Positions 51,079-61,711 of a DNA stretch of 64,000 nt are shown here, one piece after another (position 1 is the stretch's first letter; every line of letters starts with the position of its first letter). This stretch comes from Cyclobacteriaceae bacterium. Its GTDB lineage: Bacteria > Bacteroidota > Bacteroidia > Cytophagales > Cyclobacteriaceae. The stretch covers positions 1-64,000 of the forward strand of contig JAHEGY010000009.1 in the NCBI GenBank assembly GCA_024644875.1, written 5' to 3'. The notes beneath the pieces were generated by a model that saw only the letters and a list, made by a program, of their open reading frames with translations, searched no databases and was not told the DNA's origin. The translations under genes were made by a program, and so were the position numbers.

Positions 51079-53448
51079 TTATTCGTATTTTAAGGAATTT
51101 GCGGGATTCAGTTGAGAGGCACGATAAATTTTCCTTCCTGAGGTTATTACAGCAAATACCACTATGATGCCGACTGATATTATAAATATACCTGGTCCCA
51201 TGTCTATATGGTGTTCGAAAACATCTCCCAGGAAGGCTTTCATAAAGTAATAGCCCAATATGGAACCAAATATGGAGGCTATCATCAAGATGATTAAGAA
51301 CTCCCTGTTCAGTAAATTGAATATCTGAAGAACAGAAGCACCCATAACTTTTCTGATCCCGATTTCTTTTATTCGCTTGTTTATATTTAACGAAACCATG
51401 GAAAACAAACCTGTGGTACTCAGGAATAAGGCAAATATCGACATAACAATAAACTGCTTCAATATGCCCATATTTATATATTCAGCTTCTTTTAATGCTT
51501 CTTCCTGGTAATATCCTTCAAATGGTTTATTAGGAAAAAGTACTTTCCAATTAGCTGATAATCCCTCATACACATCGGTAATATTTTCTTTTTCAGCCTG
51601 TACGCATAGCATTTTGCAATCTTGGTCAGATATTTTCTTCAGTATAACAGGCTTTATAGGGCGGTGAAGACCATAGGGCATATAGTTTTGTATTACACCA
51701 ACAATATAATAAGTCTTGTTATCCATTTTAATTCCTTGTGAGTAGGGGTCCCCTATATCATAGGTTTCAAGAAACTGTTCATTAACAATTATGCTTTCAT
51801 TCATATCGTTCTCTGACCTGGTTATAAAATCCCGTCCACTAATCAATTTTAATTCAAGTGTATTTAGATAGTTTTCTCCAATCAATAATCTTTGAGCATG
51901 ATGTTCTTCTCCATCGATATCAATCTCAATGTTTTCAAATCCAAATCCTACATTATGGATTGCACCCGCAACCTGATTTATGCCGTTAATATCTGCAACT
52001 GAATTTCTGTAAACCTCGAAATCCTGACTTTCATACAGTGGAACAACAAGTACTTCATCCTTGTTGTATCCAAAATCGAGCTCTGACTGATACCGGGCAT
52101 TTAAGGATAGGGCTATTCCGGCAAATATGGCCGTGATGGATAATCCGAATTGCCAGGTTAAAAGTATGCGATTGAATGGATTTGTTCCCCCGAGTTTCAG
52201 ATCTCCCTTTAAAATGTTGGAGGGTTGAAATTTTGAAATATAGAATGCAGGATAGGCTCCGGCAAGCAAGGTTACCAGTATAAGAACTACTATCAGATAC
52301 ATAATAAGAGCTATGTTCGAAAAGTAATCCAGTGACAACTCAATAGGCCATTGAACATTCATCCAGAGGATCCACATCCTGGCAATTTCCATCGCTATCA
52401 GCAGGGCAATCATGCTTTGGATAAGATTTTCAAATAAGAACTGTATTAAAACCTGTTTTTTCAAACTTCCGAATGTTTTTCTAATACCAATTTCTTTTAA
52501 TCGTTTTTGCGCATAAGCAATGGCGGTATTGGTGAAATTGAAACAGGCGATAAACAGAATGATCAGGTTCATGAATAGAGATCCATAGAGGGCAGATAAT
52601 GGCAATCCAGACCAGGTAATAGAAGAATAGAGATTTCTTGATTCATCTTTCTGGTCTTTGAATGGCATCAGATAGAACTGGTCTACTTTCCATGTTTCAA
52701 GTAGTTCGTTATTCTTTTCGGCATACCTCTTTAAATTTTCTTCCACTTGTGCAGGATCAATATCCTTTTCCAAATTGATATAGGTGATAGATGGAATTTG
52801 TACCGTCCATGAATCCTCATTTAACTGGTATATTTCATATATGTTCTCATATGGTGCTATTATGTCAAATTTGAAGCTGGAATTTTCCGGGATCTTATCT
52901 ACAATTCCTCCAATAACAAAACTTTGAACAATCTGGTTGTTTAATACAATCTCTAATGGTTTTCCAAGAGAATTTTCTTCACCAAAGTATTTTTTTGAAA
53001 AATCCTGGCTGATCAGGACGGTATTTTTTTCATGGAAAGTTGTTCGTTCACCGGTAATAAGCGGGAAATTAAATTGATCGAAAAAATTATAATCAGCAAA
53101 AAATAGATTTTCTGAATGGGTATTATCTTCATACTTAATTATAACTCTTGAGGTCCCAAACCGGGTAAAGGATTCAATACCAGATATTTGAGTGCTTATT
53201 TCGGGACCTAAAGGAAGGGGAGTAATTCCCCATCTTTGAGTTTCATTTTCGATTGATCTTAAGCTGTTAATCCTGTATATGAAGTCAGTATTCTTATATT
53301 GATTATCGAATTTCAATTCATAATCAACCAGAGCATATGTAATTATTATACCGGATAAACCAATTCCTAATCCAATAATATTGATCAGGGTATAGGTCAG
53401 ATTTTTTTTCAGACTACGATATGTAGTTTTCAGATAGTTTATTAACAT
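51079..53448 (-). CDS. MacB/FtsX-type ABC transporter permease (copy 2)
   Basis: The 789-residue protein has the same plan as copy 1: N-terminal segment (about 18-40), MacB-type periplasmic domain (about 50-270), FtsX block with E-I-G-I-R-K-T-F-G (about 280-400), second periplasmic region and a final FtsX block with E-I-G-I-R-K-V-M-G-A-S. It ends N-P-A-N-S-L-K-Y-E. No ATPase is next to it. It converges on the CotH gene, 13 bp apart. Its upstream leader contains a long hairpin at 53482-53547. Confidence 0.92.
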   Translation of the reverse strand: MLINYLKTTYRSLKKNLTYTLINIIGLGIGLSGIIITYALVDYELKFDNQYKNTDFIYRINSLRSIENETQRWGITPLPLGPEISTQISGIESFTRFGTSRVIIKYEDNTHSENLFFADYNFFDQFNFPLITGERTTFHEKNTVLISQDFSKKYFGEENSLGKPLEIVLNNQIVQSFVIGGIVDKIPENSSFKFDIIAPYENIYEIYQLNEDSWTVQIPSITYINLEKDIDPAQVEENLKRYAEKNNELLETWKVDQFYLMPFKDQKDESRNLYSSITWSGLPLSALYGSLFMNLIILFIACFNFTNTAIAYAQKRLKEIGIRKTFGSLKKQVLIQFLFENLIQSMIALLIAMEIARMWILWMNVQWPIELSLDYFSNIALIMYLIVVLILVTLLAGAYPAFYISKFQPSNILKGDLKLGGTNPFNRILLTWQFGLSITAIFAGIALSLNARYQSELDFGYNKDEVLVVPLYESQDFEVYRNSVADINGINQVAGAIHNVGFGFENIEIDIDGEEHHAQRLLIGENYLNTLELKLISGRDFITRSENDMNESIIVNEQFLETYDIGDPYSQGIKMDNKTYYIVGVIQNYMPYGLHRPIKPVILKKISDQDCKMLCVQAEKENITDVYEGLSANWKVLFPNKPFEGYYQEEALKEAEYINMGILKQFIVMSIFALFLSTTGLFSMVSLNINKRIKEIGIRKVMGASVLQIFNLLNREFLIILMIASIFGSILGYYFMKAFLGDVFEHHIDMGPGIFIISVGIIVVFAVITSGRKIYRASQLNPANSLKYE

Positions 53449-54985: not shown

Positions 54986-55414
54986 ATGGCCGGACTTAAA
55001 AAGAAATATACTAAAGAAAACCTGACTGTTATCTGGCAGCCGGATTTATGTATTCATTCAAGAGAATGTTCTAAAGGCTTACCTCAAGTTTTTAATCCCG
55101 CCAACAAGCCATGGGTCAACATGAATGCTGAATCAGTTGACAGGATAAGAAACCAGGTCGACAAATGCCCTTCCGGAGCATTGTCCTATGAAATGAACCA
55201 TGAAAAAACAAAAAACGATAAAACTATGGAAAAAACACTCCAAATTGACGTATCTGAAAATGGCCCCATTTTAATAAATGGACCTGCAAATATAATTTAT
55301 CAAGGAAACCAGGAGCTTAAAGAATCAAAGACCATTGCCCTCTGCCGGTGTGGATTGTCTTCAAGAAAACCATATTGTGACGGCACCCATAAACGGGAAG
55401 GATTTAAGGGATAG
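54986..55414 (+). CDS. Fe-S protein: Fer4_19 (YjdI-like) plus CDGSH domain
   Basis: The 142-residue protein joins two cluster domains. The N-terminal part (about 8-68) has C22, C28 and C61 in the Fer4_19/YjdI arrangement (D-L-C-I-H-S-x-x-C and K-C-P-S-G-A-L). The C-terminal part has the CDGSH pattern C120-x-C122 and C131-D-G-T-H135, which binds a 2Fe-2S cluster with three Cys and one His. A Lys/Thr linker joins them. Such fusions occur in Bacteroidota; they may act in electron transfer or iron handling. The Nramp-like gene starts 86 bp downstream. Confidence 0.88.
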   Translation: MAGLKKKYTKENLTVIWQPDLCIHSRECSKGLPQVFNPANKPWVNMNAESVDRIRNQVDKCPSGALSYEMNHEKTKNDKTMEKTLQIDVSENGPILINGPANIIYQGNQELKESKTIALCRCGLSSRKPYCDGTHKREGFKG

Positions 55415-56840: not shown

Positions 56841-58184
56841 TCAATTATTTAAGTTCATCTTTATTTCATATCCCCGGACCTTTATAAAAGGCATGGTATC
56901 GGATTCAGTACCCTTTATTCCAACATATTGATATTCCGAATCGTCCTTGATCATGATCTTCGTTTTGAAATCAGATTCCTGAAATTCTATCTTTCCGTAT
57001 TTTGTGTCCCAGTCTAATTTCAGATGATTAGTAGCAGATGTGTTAAGTGTAATATTAGCGTATTTGCTGATCACATCAAAATGAGTAAAAGAGGATGAGG
57101 TATCATATATTTTAATATTATCATCATAACCATCCAGGATAGTAAAGCTATTTGTGAGATTGCTTATAGTGTATTCCGAGTATTTGGAACTATTCGCTTT
57201 AAAAGATGTGACACTTTCAAAGCTGAATTCATCATCATATGACGAGGATATCTTTACCACCCCGGCGGTATTGAATTCAAAACCGGAGTATTTTGATTCA
57301 GAAATTTCCAGATTACCTATTTCATCAATTTCCAGGTTGGAGTCGTATATTGTCAGATCCAGTTTACCCGATTTCATACATTTAAGGTCAGAATACTTTG
57401 TATTCAATTCAAAATCACCTGTTGTATTGAAAGTCATAGTATCATCATACCCATCAATATCAACATTGCCTGCCTGATTTATATTTATTTTGCTGTATTT
57501 GGAGATTATTTTAATGTCTTCAGTTTTCTCCGCCGTAAAATCGCTATCGTAAATCTCCATTTCAGTGGGTCCGAAATTTTCAAACTCAAGATCGCTATAT
57601 TTGGCCTCAATCCGGACTTCTCCGCTGGCATTTTTACCATAGATCTTATCGTCATAGCTGTTCAATTCCAAATCCACCACATTACTCATATCAATTTTTG
57701 AATATTTTGATTCCAGTTCAAAATTGGAGGATTCAGGCAAATACAATCTGGCCTTGATGTTAAACTCGCTGAGCTTAACTGACCGCCCATTTTTCAATTT
57801 CATTTTTATAACGTTCCTGCCAAGAGTGCTGTTGGAACTTCTGCTGTCCCAGAATGTCGTTTCAAGCTTAACTTCATTATTACGGGCTGGGAAGGTCAGG
57901 CTTTCAAGATAGTTATTTATTGCATCTAAATCCGCCTGTTCTTTGGCCTGTGCATCAACACTAATAATAAACCGGACCGTATTTGAATTGGATGGTTCAA
58001 TGACCACATCGCAATCATAGTTACTTAACTCGATGGTTGCACCCGGTTCAATATTGTAAGTCCATTCAAAATTTTCACTGAAAGTGAGGCCTTTACTCAT
58101 GACTATCTGAGTGGTCAGAAGAAAGCAAAGGCTTAATAATCCTTTATAAACTGACTTCTTGTATATCTTTTTCATATTTTTCAA
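56841..58184 (-). CDS. Exported beta-repeat protein with alternating KYS and YDD rungs
   Basis: The 447-residue protein has a signal peptide (about 1-32; M1 at 58184 and M4 at 58175 are both possible). From about residue 150 on, a repeat of 34-36 residues recurs about six times, each with a K-Y-S-x-[ILF] rung and, 17-18 residues on, a Y-D-[DS]-x rung: S-K-Y-S-K-I, S-Y-D-D-K-I, A-K-Y-S-D-L, I-Y-D-S-D-F and so on to T-K-Y-G-K-I. This is the geometry of a parallel beta-helix, and relates loosely to DUF4097-type adhesins. It overlaps the upstream gene by 41 bp and is the last gene of the sigma-factor operon. Confidence 0.8.
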   Translation of the reverse strand: MKNMKKIYKKSVYKGLLSLCFLLTTQIVMSKGLTFSENFEWTYNIEPGATIELSNYDCDVVIEPSNSNTVRFIISVDAQAKEQADLDAINNYLESLTFPARNNEVKLETTFWDSRSSNSTLGRNVIKMKLKNGRSVKLSEFNIKARLYLPESSNFELESKYSKIDMSNVVDLELNSYDDKIYGKNASGEVRIEAKYSDLEFENFGPTEMEIYDSDFTAEKTEDIKIISKYSKININQAGNVDIDGYDDTMTFNTTGDFELNTKYSDLKCMKSGKLDLTIYDSNLEIDEIGNLEISESKYSGFEFNTAGVVKISSSYDDEFSFESVTSFKANSSKYSEYTISNLTNSFTILDGYDDNIKIYDTSSSFTHFDVISKYANITLNTSATNHLKLDWDTKYGKIEFQESDFKTKIMIKDDSEYQYVGIKGTESDTMPFIKVRGYEIKMNLNN

Positions 58185-58692
58185 TTTTTTGTGTCTCCAT
58201 TATGATTTTTTCAAGTATTCGAATTCGCTTTTCGTAGGTGTCGAAAATTATCTCAACAATTTGTTCCATATACCCATGTTGTTTTAAATCGTTGATGGCA
58301 TCCTGATAAATAGTGTCCAGTACATTTAATTCATTTATCAGAACCGGAATAATATCATTATCAGGAGTTCCGGAAAGCCCCTGAATATTGGCATCCTGCA
58401 TTTTCAGAATCACGGTTTGCTGGTAGGCCTTCTCACGATCACCCAGCGATTCATTGATTTGACTTAAAGAGAATTCTCTTTCTTTTTCCCTGCCGGTTTC
58501 ATTATAAATGATATAACTTAATGTGAATATGGCCAGGAAAATGGCTGCCACTCTCCAGAAGTTAAAAGCAGAAGATTTCTTTTTCGCAATTATTTCTTTT
58601 CGTATTCCTTCCCAAAGCAAGGTTTCATCAGGTTCTTCAATATCGAGTTCCTGACGTTTTATCCTGAGATATTTTTCCAGATCAATTTTCAT
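58144..58692 (-). CDS. Single-pass membrane protein, candidate anti-sigma factor
   Basis: The 182-residue product has a basic/acidic cytoplasmic N-terminus (about 1-45, with D-L-E-K-Y-L-R-I-K-R), one membrane segment (about 47-63) and a periplasmic helical domain rich in Glu and Lys. The position right behind an ECF sigma gene (11-bp overlap) is that of an anti-sigma factor, although no zinc-binding anti-sigma domain is seen. Its last codons overlap the beta-repeat gene by 41 bp. Confidence 0.7.
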   Translation of the reverse strand: MKIDLEKYLRIKRQELDIEEPDETLLWEGIRKEIIAKKKSSAFNFWRVAAIFLAIFTLSYIIYNETGREKEREFSLSQINESLGDREKAYQQTVILKMQDANIQGLSGTPDNDIIPVLINELNVLDTIYQDAINDLKQHGYMEQIVEIIFDTYEKRIRILEKIIMETQKIEKYEKDIQEVSL

Positions 58693-59242: not shown

Positions 59243-59290
59243 TTCTAGGACGGGGGGATATCGAAATAGTTGGAATAAATTTAAATTTTT

Positions 59291-61711
59291 TTATTCATAC
59301 CTCAGAATATTAGCAGGATTCGTCCTTGTTGCTTTCAGGAGGACGTTTGATACCGTACTGATAGAAATGAGCATTATAATTAAAACAGGTAATAAGAATG
59401 CCCATAATGGCGGATCAATCTTAAAAGCGTAGCTATTCAGCCATTTGTCTATGACAAACCATGTGGCCGGGATGGCTATAATACTGGATATAATAATGAG
59501 TATGACAATTTCTTTGACGAGTAAATAATAAATACTCAAGCCAGGTGCACCTAATACTTTTCGGATTCCAATCTCTTTAATTCTTTGTGAGGTTGAATAT
59601 ATTGACAAACCCAACAAGCCAAGAACAGCAATAAATATGGCTACCAGGCTGAACACAGTAATTATCTTACCATATTGTACATCAAGTTTATATTGTTGAT
59701 CATAAAAGGCATCTAAAAAGAAATAATCAAAAGAAGATTCAGGAAAGAATTCATTCCAGATCTTTTTGCTTTCATTTAGGATCAGGGTAATATTCTGTGT
59801 ATTAAACCTGATCGAATAATACTCAATGGGTATCCAGCTGTATTCAGGATCCATTAACAAAATGATAGGCGTGAAATCGTTCTGAAGGGATTGCTGATGG
59901 TAGTCTTTGATAACACCAATTACTTCGTTGGGTTCATTCTGGTTAACTTCCAGATGTATTTTCTCATTTAAGGCAGCTTCCGGGTCCTTAAATCCAAACT
60001 GTTTGGCGGCTGATTCGTTCAATATAAGTCCTTTCAAGTCCGAAGGTCTATCACGCTCAAAATTTCTTCCTGCAATCACCTGAAGGCCATAGGTGTCGAT
60101 ATAATCATAATCAGTCATTAACATCTCATAAAGCCGGTCTTCTTCCACGTCAGCATGATAGCGCCTGTTTGCCAGGAATTTTGCCACCTGCATTCCAGCT
60201 ACTGTTCCAGATCCTGTAACTTTTTCGACACCGGGAATACGTCTGAGTTCTTTCTTGAAGGTCATGATCTTGTGCTCGTAATCATCTGTTTGAACGGGTG
60301 CTTCGATAACCAGGACCTGGTCGATGTTAATGCGGGGGTCTTTATCGCGCATGAACTGGATCTGTTTGTAAATAATGAGTGTTCCGGCTATAAGAATAAA
60401 AGAAGCCCCAAACTGAAGAACGGATAAAAATTTTCTATACTGGTTTCCGCTTCTTGATCTTATAAATTTTCCTTTGAGAACTTTTATGGCCTTAAAATTT
60501 GAGAGGATCATTGCAGGGTATAGTCCTGCTCCAAATATACCGCCGATAAAAACGAAGATCAATATGTATGCAAACGAACTTGTAAACCAGAAATCAAAAT
60601 TGAATATTTCGCCAATATATTTCAAAATCAGAATCCTGAACAGGTAGGTTAAAATAACAGCCATTAGGATAGCCAGAAGATTGATCAGTAAGGCGTCCAG
60701 TAAAAATTGTGTGATCAACTGCGAGCTTGTAGAGCCCACGACTTTTCTGATCCCTACCTCTTTTGCACGATCGATGGCCCTGGCCGTAGTGAGATTAATA
60801 TAGTTAATCCAGGCAATGAGGAGAATAATAATAGCAATAATGCCAAAAAAATTAACAGCTTTCCTATTTCCTTTGGCATCTATCTCATAAGGTTTTGCCG
60901 GATTCAGATGTATGTCTTTCATTGGGACGAGGTCAATTGCCCATTTCAGATCTCTTAAGGCTTCCCTGGTTTTATACTGTTCTGCGAGTTCAGGAAATCG
61001 TGATTCCACATGATCTTCTTCATCTGCATTATTTAATTTGATATAGGAATAGCTCTCGTGAAGATACCAGAAATCCCTCATCCATAAAGGAGATGTTTCC
61101 CAGGAAATGAGGGCATCAAATTGTAAACTGGAATTGCTGGGAAGATCTTCAAATACGCCCGTTACCATACAATGATATGTATATCGCAATGTGCTGATGA
61201 TTAGGATTTTGTTCATTGGATCATCATCCTTAAAGAACTTGTCAGATATAGATTTGGATATTACTATTGAATTGGGTTCTAAAAGAAATGTTTCCGGGTT
61301 TCCGCTGATGACAGGGAAGGAAAAAAAAGAAAAGAAATTCGAATCAGCAAAACAAACATGTTGCTCACGGAATTTTATATCATCATATCTGATAGTCCTG
61401 TATGAATCATGCCAGTTTATTCTTGTAAAATCCCGAACTTCCGGAAAGTTTTTATGCATGGCGGGGACATAACCATTTGTACTGGTAGGCCAGTTGTCGG
61501 TCACAACATCACTCTTATAAAAAAGACTTTCGACGCGGTAGATGCTTTCGAGATCTTTTTGAAAATTATCATAGGAATACTCAAACAGTACATAGCTGAC
61601 AATCAATAGAAAACATGTTATTCCGAGTGCCAACCCAATGATATTTATTGAACTGAATACCCGGTTTTTATAAAGATTGCGGAATGAAGTAAGAAAAAAA
61701 TTTTTCAGCAT
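59291..61711 (-). CDS. MacB/FtsX-type ABC transporter permease (copy 3)
   Basis: The 806-residue protein has the same domain order as the other two copies: first membrane segment (about 20-42), periplasmic domain, FtsX block with E-V-G-I-R-K-V-V-G-S-T (about 310-420), second periplasmic domain, last FtsX block with E-I-G-I-R-K-V-L-G-A-P, and the end N-P-A-N-I-L-R-Y-E. No ATPase is near. It lies 48 bp before the sigma factor on the same strand and may be the first gene of that transcript. Confidence 0.92.
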   Translation of the reverse strand: MLKNFFLTSFRNLYKNRVFSSINIIGLALGITCFLLIVSYVLFEYSYDNFQKDLESIYRVESLFYKSDVVTDNWPTSTNGYVPAMHKNFPEVRDFTRINWHDSYRTIRYDDIKFREQHVCFADSNFFSFFSFPVISGNPETFLLEPNSIVISKSISDKFFKDDDPMNKILIISTLRYTYHCMVTGVFEDLPSNSSLQFDALISWETSPLWMRDFWYLHESYSYIKLNNADEEDHVESRFPELAEQYKTREALRDLKWAIDLVPMKDIHLNPAKPYEIDAKGNRKAVNFFGIIAIIILLIAWINYINLTTARAIDRAKEVGIRKVVGSTSSQLITQFLLDALLINLLAILMAVILTYLFRILILKYIGEIFNFDFWFTSSFAYILIFVFIGGIFGAGLYPAMILSNFKAIKVLKGKFIRSRSGNQYRKFLSVLQFGASFILIAGTLIIYKQIQFMRDKDPRINIDQVLVIEAPVQTDDYEHKIMTFKKELRRIPGVEKVTGSGTVAGMQVAKFLANRRYHADVEEDRLYEMLMTDYDYIDTYGLQVIAGRNFERDRPSDLKGLILNESAAKQFGFKDPEAALNEKIHLEVNQNEPNEVIGVIKDYHQQSLQNDFTPIILLMDPEYSWIPIEYYSIRFNTQNITLILNESKKIWNEFFPESSFDYFFLDAFYDQQYKLDVQYGKIITVFSLVAIFIAVLGLLGLSIYSTSQRIKEIGIRKVLGAPGLSIYYLLVKEIVILIIISSIIAIPATWFVIDKWLNSYAFKIDPPLWAFLLPVLIIMLISISTVSNVLLKATRTNPANILRYE

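Follow-up and report, generated by a model that had tools for sequence, protein, structure and literature searches.

The window analysed here, 64,000 nucleotides of the forward strand of a contig from a Cyclobacteriaceae bacterium (JAHEGY010000009.1, assembly GCA_024644875.1), carries at 56841–58184 on the reverse strand a gene for an apparently exported, Toastrack-like beta-ladder protein of 447 residues when read from TTG 58184. An alternative start at ATG 58175, giving 444 residues, is graded likelier; the MKK start of relatives corresponds to this ATG, and most relatives begin with MK. On the same strand lie an ECF sigma factor gene with Sigma70_r2 and Sigma70_r4_2 domains (PF04542 and PF08281; 58682–59242, listed from TTG 59242, with ATG 59227 the likelier start) and, between sigma factor and ladder, a gene for a 182-residue single-transmembrane (TM) protein that we regard as a putative anti-sigma factor (58144–58692). 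An earlier, sequence-only reading had made the ladder the last gene of a sigma-factor/membrane-protein operon, and this is confirmed and holds in relatives as well; the 41-bp overlap it gave with the upstream gene applies from the TTG start, and from ATG 58175 becomes 32 bp.

The outer neighbours of the module vary between loci. In the window they include, by eye, two large FtsX/MacB-like permease ORFs on the reverse strand (59291–61711 and 51079–53448), the first of which ends 48 bases upstream of the sigma factor gene, with a promoter-like element in the gap. The translation of a small forward-strand ORF (54986–55414) looks, by eye, ferredoxin-like and rich in Cys in its first part and CDGSH-like at its C-terminus (CRCG...PYCDGTHK).

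Export and topology were called from simple counts of hydrophobicity and charge, not with a trained predictor. The N-terminus of the ladder (58092–58175, reverse strand) resembles a signal peptide in its basic start and hydrophobic stretch. It is of the export type, albeit weaker than in five relatives compared, and sequence features point to the exported character proposed earlier. By the same counts ladder N-termini were exported-like in 55 of 58 operons, and a similar hydrophobic N-terminus was found in none of the 58 sigma factors. Charge places the N-terminus of the TM protein inside the cell in 53/58 cases, the TM helix being preceded by a median of 46 residues. In the window this protein has about 44 residues with two short predicted helices, a TM segment at about 45–63 and, after it, a part predicted to be helical; ahead of residue 73 almost all of the model is of low confidence. 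The window's TM protein had no match to a Pfam family, and a Pfam scan of the TM proteins revealed no recognised anti-sigma domain; one member of the set matched DUF3379 (E 1.2e-6), a family that is not named in the available text of PMC7406223. The same text reports a recognised class I anti-sigma factor near 6% of Bacteroidota ECF sigma factors, as against 32% on average, and describes the class II anti-sigma factor CnrY as a short two-helix segment that wraps its sigma factor (PMC7406223). The TM protein here would be CnrY-like in its two short helices ahead of the TM segment, a likeness that comes from a low-confidence model and not from sequence.

The alternating part of the ladder protein runs from KYS160 to KYG395 (56994–57707, reverse strand), where one corner of successive rungs alternates between K-Y-S and Y-D-[DS]. 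Named by their first residues, the rungs are KYS160, YDD177, KYS195, YDS212, KYS229, YDD246, KYS263, YDS280, KYS298, YDD316, KYS334, YDD353, KYA374 and KYG395. The regular ladder described by the sequence-only reading therefore stands, and its count of about fifteen is corrected to 14 clear Tyr rungs. The first 12 alternate without a break and are followed by two K-Y rungs, giving the order ABABABABABABAA, in which the rung type changes at 12 of the 13 steps (p 0.0023 by permutation). Tyr-to-Tyr spacing mostly alternates between 16 and 18, that is, a two-rung unit of 34 residues, and the residue autocorrelation of the core peaks at multiples of 17 (z of 4.3 at lag 51, 3.0 at lag 68 and 2.7 at lag 17; 2000 shuffles). 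Repeats in the gene are weak at the DNA level, so that a recent DNA duplication was rejected as their origin, and the rung pattern is taken to be old and kept at the protein level, presumably by selection on the protein.

Loss of the alternation in homologues, on which the sequence-only reading had staked its case, was not found. The alternation is kept in all 15 long-form ladders tested, with p values of 0.0009–0.03 in 12 of them (the window's included) and of 0.05–0.08 in three (L067, L068 and L072), where it is mostly the first rungs that break the order; it recurs across several GTDB families. Rung counts are partial for the long forms L073, which ends at a contig end, and L074, and for L096, in all of which the ladder finder stopped early. 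By inspection, a milder two-phase pattern also appears in generic members of the family (L075, L076, L080, L082, L083 and L084), where this corner tends to have Tyr in one rung and Phe in the next (SFG/KYG).

An AlphaFold2 model of the ladder, built from a shallow alignment of four sequences (model residue n being ORF residue n+33), is a beta-solenoid with a mean pLDDT of 77 and values of 93–98 through most of the rung region, and so contains the repeating helix that the earlier reading had expected of it. That the repeat is an artefact of chance or composition we hold to be vanishingly improbable: such an origin has a single-frame residue bias in its favour and nothing beyond, and it is opposed both by this confident solenoid and by an alternation that is significant in the window protein and repeated in remote relatives. 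Each rung has two strands of 6–7 residues, with two-residue gaps at Y161-S162, D178-D179, Y196-S197, D213-S214, Y230-S231, D247-D248 and Y264-S265. From one corner to the next the model has 17 residues (18 in one case), so that the 16/18 spacing of the tyrosines comes from Tyr moving by one residue at a corner that stays in place. Read from the secondary-structure string, the corner is predicted to form a checkerboard, with K, Y, K, Y in column one and Y, D, Y, D in column two. The two strands per rung, together with a near one-to-one span in the structural alignment to the RsaA beta-roll (model 4–414 against chain 255–662), suggest one 17-residue rung per turn. The proposal that Tyr and Lys occupy one face and Asp another was consequently rejected, as both rung types in the model lie at the same corner of successive turns, with Tyr shifted by one.

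The chemistry of this corner varies among relatives. Across an alignment of 11 sequences, Tyr does not vary at the main rungs. The residue that follows it in rungs of the second type (scored at Y209 of the alignment) is Asp in the window protein, L073 and L074, and Glu in the other eight. In two fused relatives, L095 and L096, described below, it is Lys after an aromatic residue (F-K-S). The sequence-only reading had suggested that the Asp rungs bind cations and the Tyr/Lys rungs a glycan. This we consider very improbable, even though Asp recurs regularly at the corner of the window protein and the structural matches include RsaA, an S-layer protein of the beta-roll type. Replacement of Asp by Glu or Lys makes a shared cation ladder unlikely, and a Ca2+ ladder was rejected on this ground; the placing of both rung types at one corner in the model is a further point against it. 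In a comparison with RTX beta-rolls no conserved acidic position per turn was found, and the RTX-type motif GGxGxD was not seen in the window protein sequence. Whether the alternation is instead purely structural, the K-Y/Y-D corner packing neighbouring turns with no ligand of its own, we regard as evenly balanced. The constancy of Tyr while its neighbour varies between D, E and K favours this, as does the F/Y alternation at the same place in generic relatives; against it, Lys before Tyr in the A rungs is very constant, more so than simple packing needs. A purely structural corner is compatible with the co-regulator role proposed below, in which the checkerboard would be a stack of residues that makes the rod stiff and gives it an extended face for contacts with proteins.

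Searches of Pfam, NCBIfam and PDB sequences with the window protein alone gave nothing usable, and PF13349 (DUF4097) was unlisted for it even at E 1. Twenty relatives produced weak matches to LiaG (8/20, best E 8.2e-7), PF13349 (4/20, best 1.2e-4), PspC Toast-rack (3/20) and the LiaX model (2/20, best E 0.00048). Aligned by hhalign to three DUF4097 proteins of the same genome, the wide family (20 relatives) scored 95.4% (E 1.9e-8), with N-terminal part paired to N-terminal part, and the alternating subfamily 89.6%, both figures standing without an unrelated beta-helix as control. The wide-family profile found no relative among PDB sequences. The window's genome holds matches to DUF4097 above the cut-off at L152, L153 and L154 (G000:C238 and C23), with corner repeats SGSGD, SSGNI or SSGSD.

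The Toastrack (DUF4097) group is the family that the ladder matches best. The best Foldseek match of the model was 4QRK at E 0.017, with none at 0.001, and 3LYC, 3LJY, 4OPW, 3JX8 and 3PET align from model residue 1 with Z of 13.7–16.6 (for 3LYC, Z 16.6 over 207 aligned residues, rmsd 2.7). Alginate lyase and tailspike beta-helices outrank the Toastracks by Z; we judge this to be generic beta-helix resemblance, because the Toastrack chains are covered over almost their whole length from model residue 1. The model has the right-handed beta-helix and the N-terminal strand region of a Toastrack, and shares with that family (PF13349, LiaG; 4QRK, 3LYC, 3LJY, 4OPW, 3PET) a right-handed solenoid with turns of ~17 residues and a non-repeating N-terminal part, whereas the Toastrack corners are SGSGD and those of the window ladder K-Y-S/Y-D. 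We therefore treat the ladder as a divergent Toastrack relative outside PF13349 membership: the relation to DUF4097 raised by the sequence-only reading holds by profile and by structure, but not as a match of the PF13349 model to the window protein itself. Toastrack domains have been linked to envelope-stress signalling, one four-gene context having an operonically linked sigma factor, and have been argued to be intracellular, as far as the available text of PMC11237479 goes. The arrangement here differs from the Toastracks described there in its TM partner, in its ladder chemistry and in that the ladder looks exported.

At about 350–390 residues the wide family occurs in 105 of 390 genomes of the window's GTDB family (A1 profile, E 1e-10) and in 31 of 295 genomes of the class (A4 profile, E 1e-15). 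The alternating long form is rare, with nine of the 390 at E <1e-100 plus two 492-residue forms (G129 and G199) that have an extra two-rung unit. In other GTDB families, the class sample yielded the alternating form at L094 and L097 and, as fusions, at L095 and L096. Named records came to just three: those of a Cyclobacteriaceae MAG, a Cytophagaceae MAG and an unclassified bacterium. The window's genome also has a second, non-alternating copy of the whole module (L075, G000:C19, 5050–7172), which shows a near-consensus promoter, TGCAACCC...TGTCTTTA.

For the gene neighbourhood we sampled, by ladder matches alone, 20 loci of the family sample, 20 of the class and 20 further family loci, plus the window; 60 ladder loci were counted, the window among them, after L097 (contig edge) had been dropped beforehand and with the duplicates L062–L064 left uncounted. 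All 60 have an ECF sigma factor gene upstream on the same strand, and 58 have a single-TM protein of ~180 residues between it and the ladder. The two loci with no separate TM protein, L095 and L096, have the sigma factor gene followed directly by a fusion of 601 or 617 residues, consisting of an N-terminus of ~46 residues, one TM helix at about 47–66, a linker and the ladder. Eight of 46 genomes in the GTDB family of these two (both included) have a match, and in six of the eight, that is, four beyond L095 and L096, an intact fusion lies adjacent to a sigma factor gene. Three fusions tested gave no Pfam family match. Another fusion-type match, L162, starts at a contig end, and in L163 (G737:C191) the N-terminal TM part is in a different ORF, by a frame change or a split gene.

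Trees of sigma factor, TM protein and ladder were built from 58 operons each, the two fusions being left out. The 12 alternating operons form exactly one clade in all three (support 0.976, 0.991 and 0.988), and distances among the trees are correlated (Mantel r 0.67–0.73, p 0.001). This correlation partly reflects species history. Some genomes, however, carry both module types (the window's own has the window module and L075), each sorting with its own kind in all three trees, so that species history is not the whole explanation.

The 48-bp gap upstream of the window's sigma factor gene contains an ECF-type promoter-like element, CCAAC-N16-CGTCCTA (59246–59273, reverse strand), which is the only exact match in the genome. 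It makes a weaker case than the elements of relatives, in that it would leave only a very short leader before ATG 59227. In the 160 bases ahead of the sigma factor gene, CAAC-N17-[GA]TC occurs in 21 of 40 discovery operons (shuffled sequences, mean 0.5, maximum 4 in 500 rounds; reverse strand, 0) and in six of 20 held-out operons (shuffled, mean 0.23, maximum 2). Since the motif was read off the discovery operons, only the held-out set is a clean test; the strict motif is absent from 19/40 and 14/20 operons respectively. A first pattern, AAC-N15-17-CGTC, was rejected, as its 3/40 lay within the shuffle range (mean 0.72, maximum 4). Genome-wide, each of two promoter patterns has one exact match, before its own operon, and one-mismatch matches are no commoner than the reversed control, so that no regulon is claimed. 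Several held-out operons that lack CAAC (upstream regions of L124–L143) show GGAAACC and then TGTC at a similar distance, possibly a second promoter subtype.

What does the ladder do? The sequence-only reading took it for the output of the operon, an envelope-protective or surface protein made when the sigma factor is active and having no regulatory role. This is the main rival to the role that we propose, and it has real points in its favour, as the ladder is the last gene and looks exported, PDB entries related to it in structure bear the title ‘putative adhesin’, and an effector made in proportion to the sigma factor could also be conserved. Yet an ordinary regulon member would be expected away from the sigma factor gene too, and no ladder locus counted lacks that gene; moreover, in six genomes the ladder is fused to a TM segment beside the sigma factor. 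A gene that is always in the operon, is inherited with it and is at times fused is better explained as part of a signalling system, and we rate a pure output role as unlikely. On balance we lean, somewhat beyond an even judgement, towards a co-regulatory role for the ladder outside the cytoplasm, as third member of an ECF/anti-sigma module, since the fusions join ladder and TM segment in one chain beside the sigma factor.

As a co-regulator the ladder might work as follows. The cytoplasmic N-terminus of the TM protein would hold the sigma factor, and its helical extracytoplasmic part would bind the ladder. The ladder, probably a brake rather than an activator, would help to keep the system inhibited, in the way that RseB acts on RseA and the LiaX C-terminus on LiaFSR, and would let go on meeting its presumed ligand, a damaged or displaced envelope component. 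The freed sigma factor could then transcribe its own three-gene operon, resupplying sigma factor, inhibitor and ladder.

RpoE-RseA-RseB and AlgU-MucA-MucB share a layout of sigma factor, single-TM inhibitor and exported third protein. The module here is like RpoE-RseA-RseB in having a sigma factor, a single-TM putative inhibitor and an apparently exported third protein, and the separate ladder parallels the separation of RseB from RseA. It differs in that its putative inhibitor has no recognised anti-sigma domain. RseB has a lipoprotein-carrier-like fold, unlike the one predicted for the ladder; the LolA-like N-terminal lipid-binding domain of the RseB/MucB family was not found, and wherever the ladder model is confident it is a beta-solenoid. 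A published abstract names an rpoE-rseA-rseB-rseC operon. The inhibitory sign is taken from RseB/MucB, in the available text of PMC7400510, and from LiaX: its C-terminal domain keeps an envelope-stress system in check, and deleting that domain switches LiaFSR on, according to the available text of PMC11601895. LiaX-LiaFSR of Enterococcus is, however, a Gram-positive two-component system, unlike the ECF module here, and LiaX has an extra N-terminal part in comparison with the ladder.

A more specific idea is that the ladder is a mechanical sensor, or a sensor of distance, whose length is tuned and which reports envelope spacing or damage to the ECF sigma factor. A stiff rod would project from an anti-sigma factor in the inner membrane toward the wall or the outer membrane, and would have been lengthened in evolution by the two-rung unit. 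We see only a slim chance of this; if true, it would mean a widely spread anti-sigma class in Bacteroidota.

Our search of the open-access literature found no paper on a sigma factor/TM protein/ladder module, which may be in print elsewhere. By its sequence features the module would have a Toastrack-like domain outside the cytoplasm, against the proposal in the available text of PMC11237479. With its short TM protein, its apparently exported ladder and its natural fusions, it is a candidate regulatory class in Bacteroidota.
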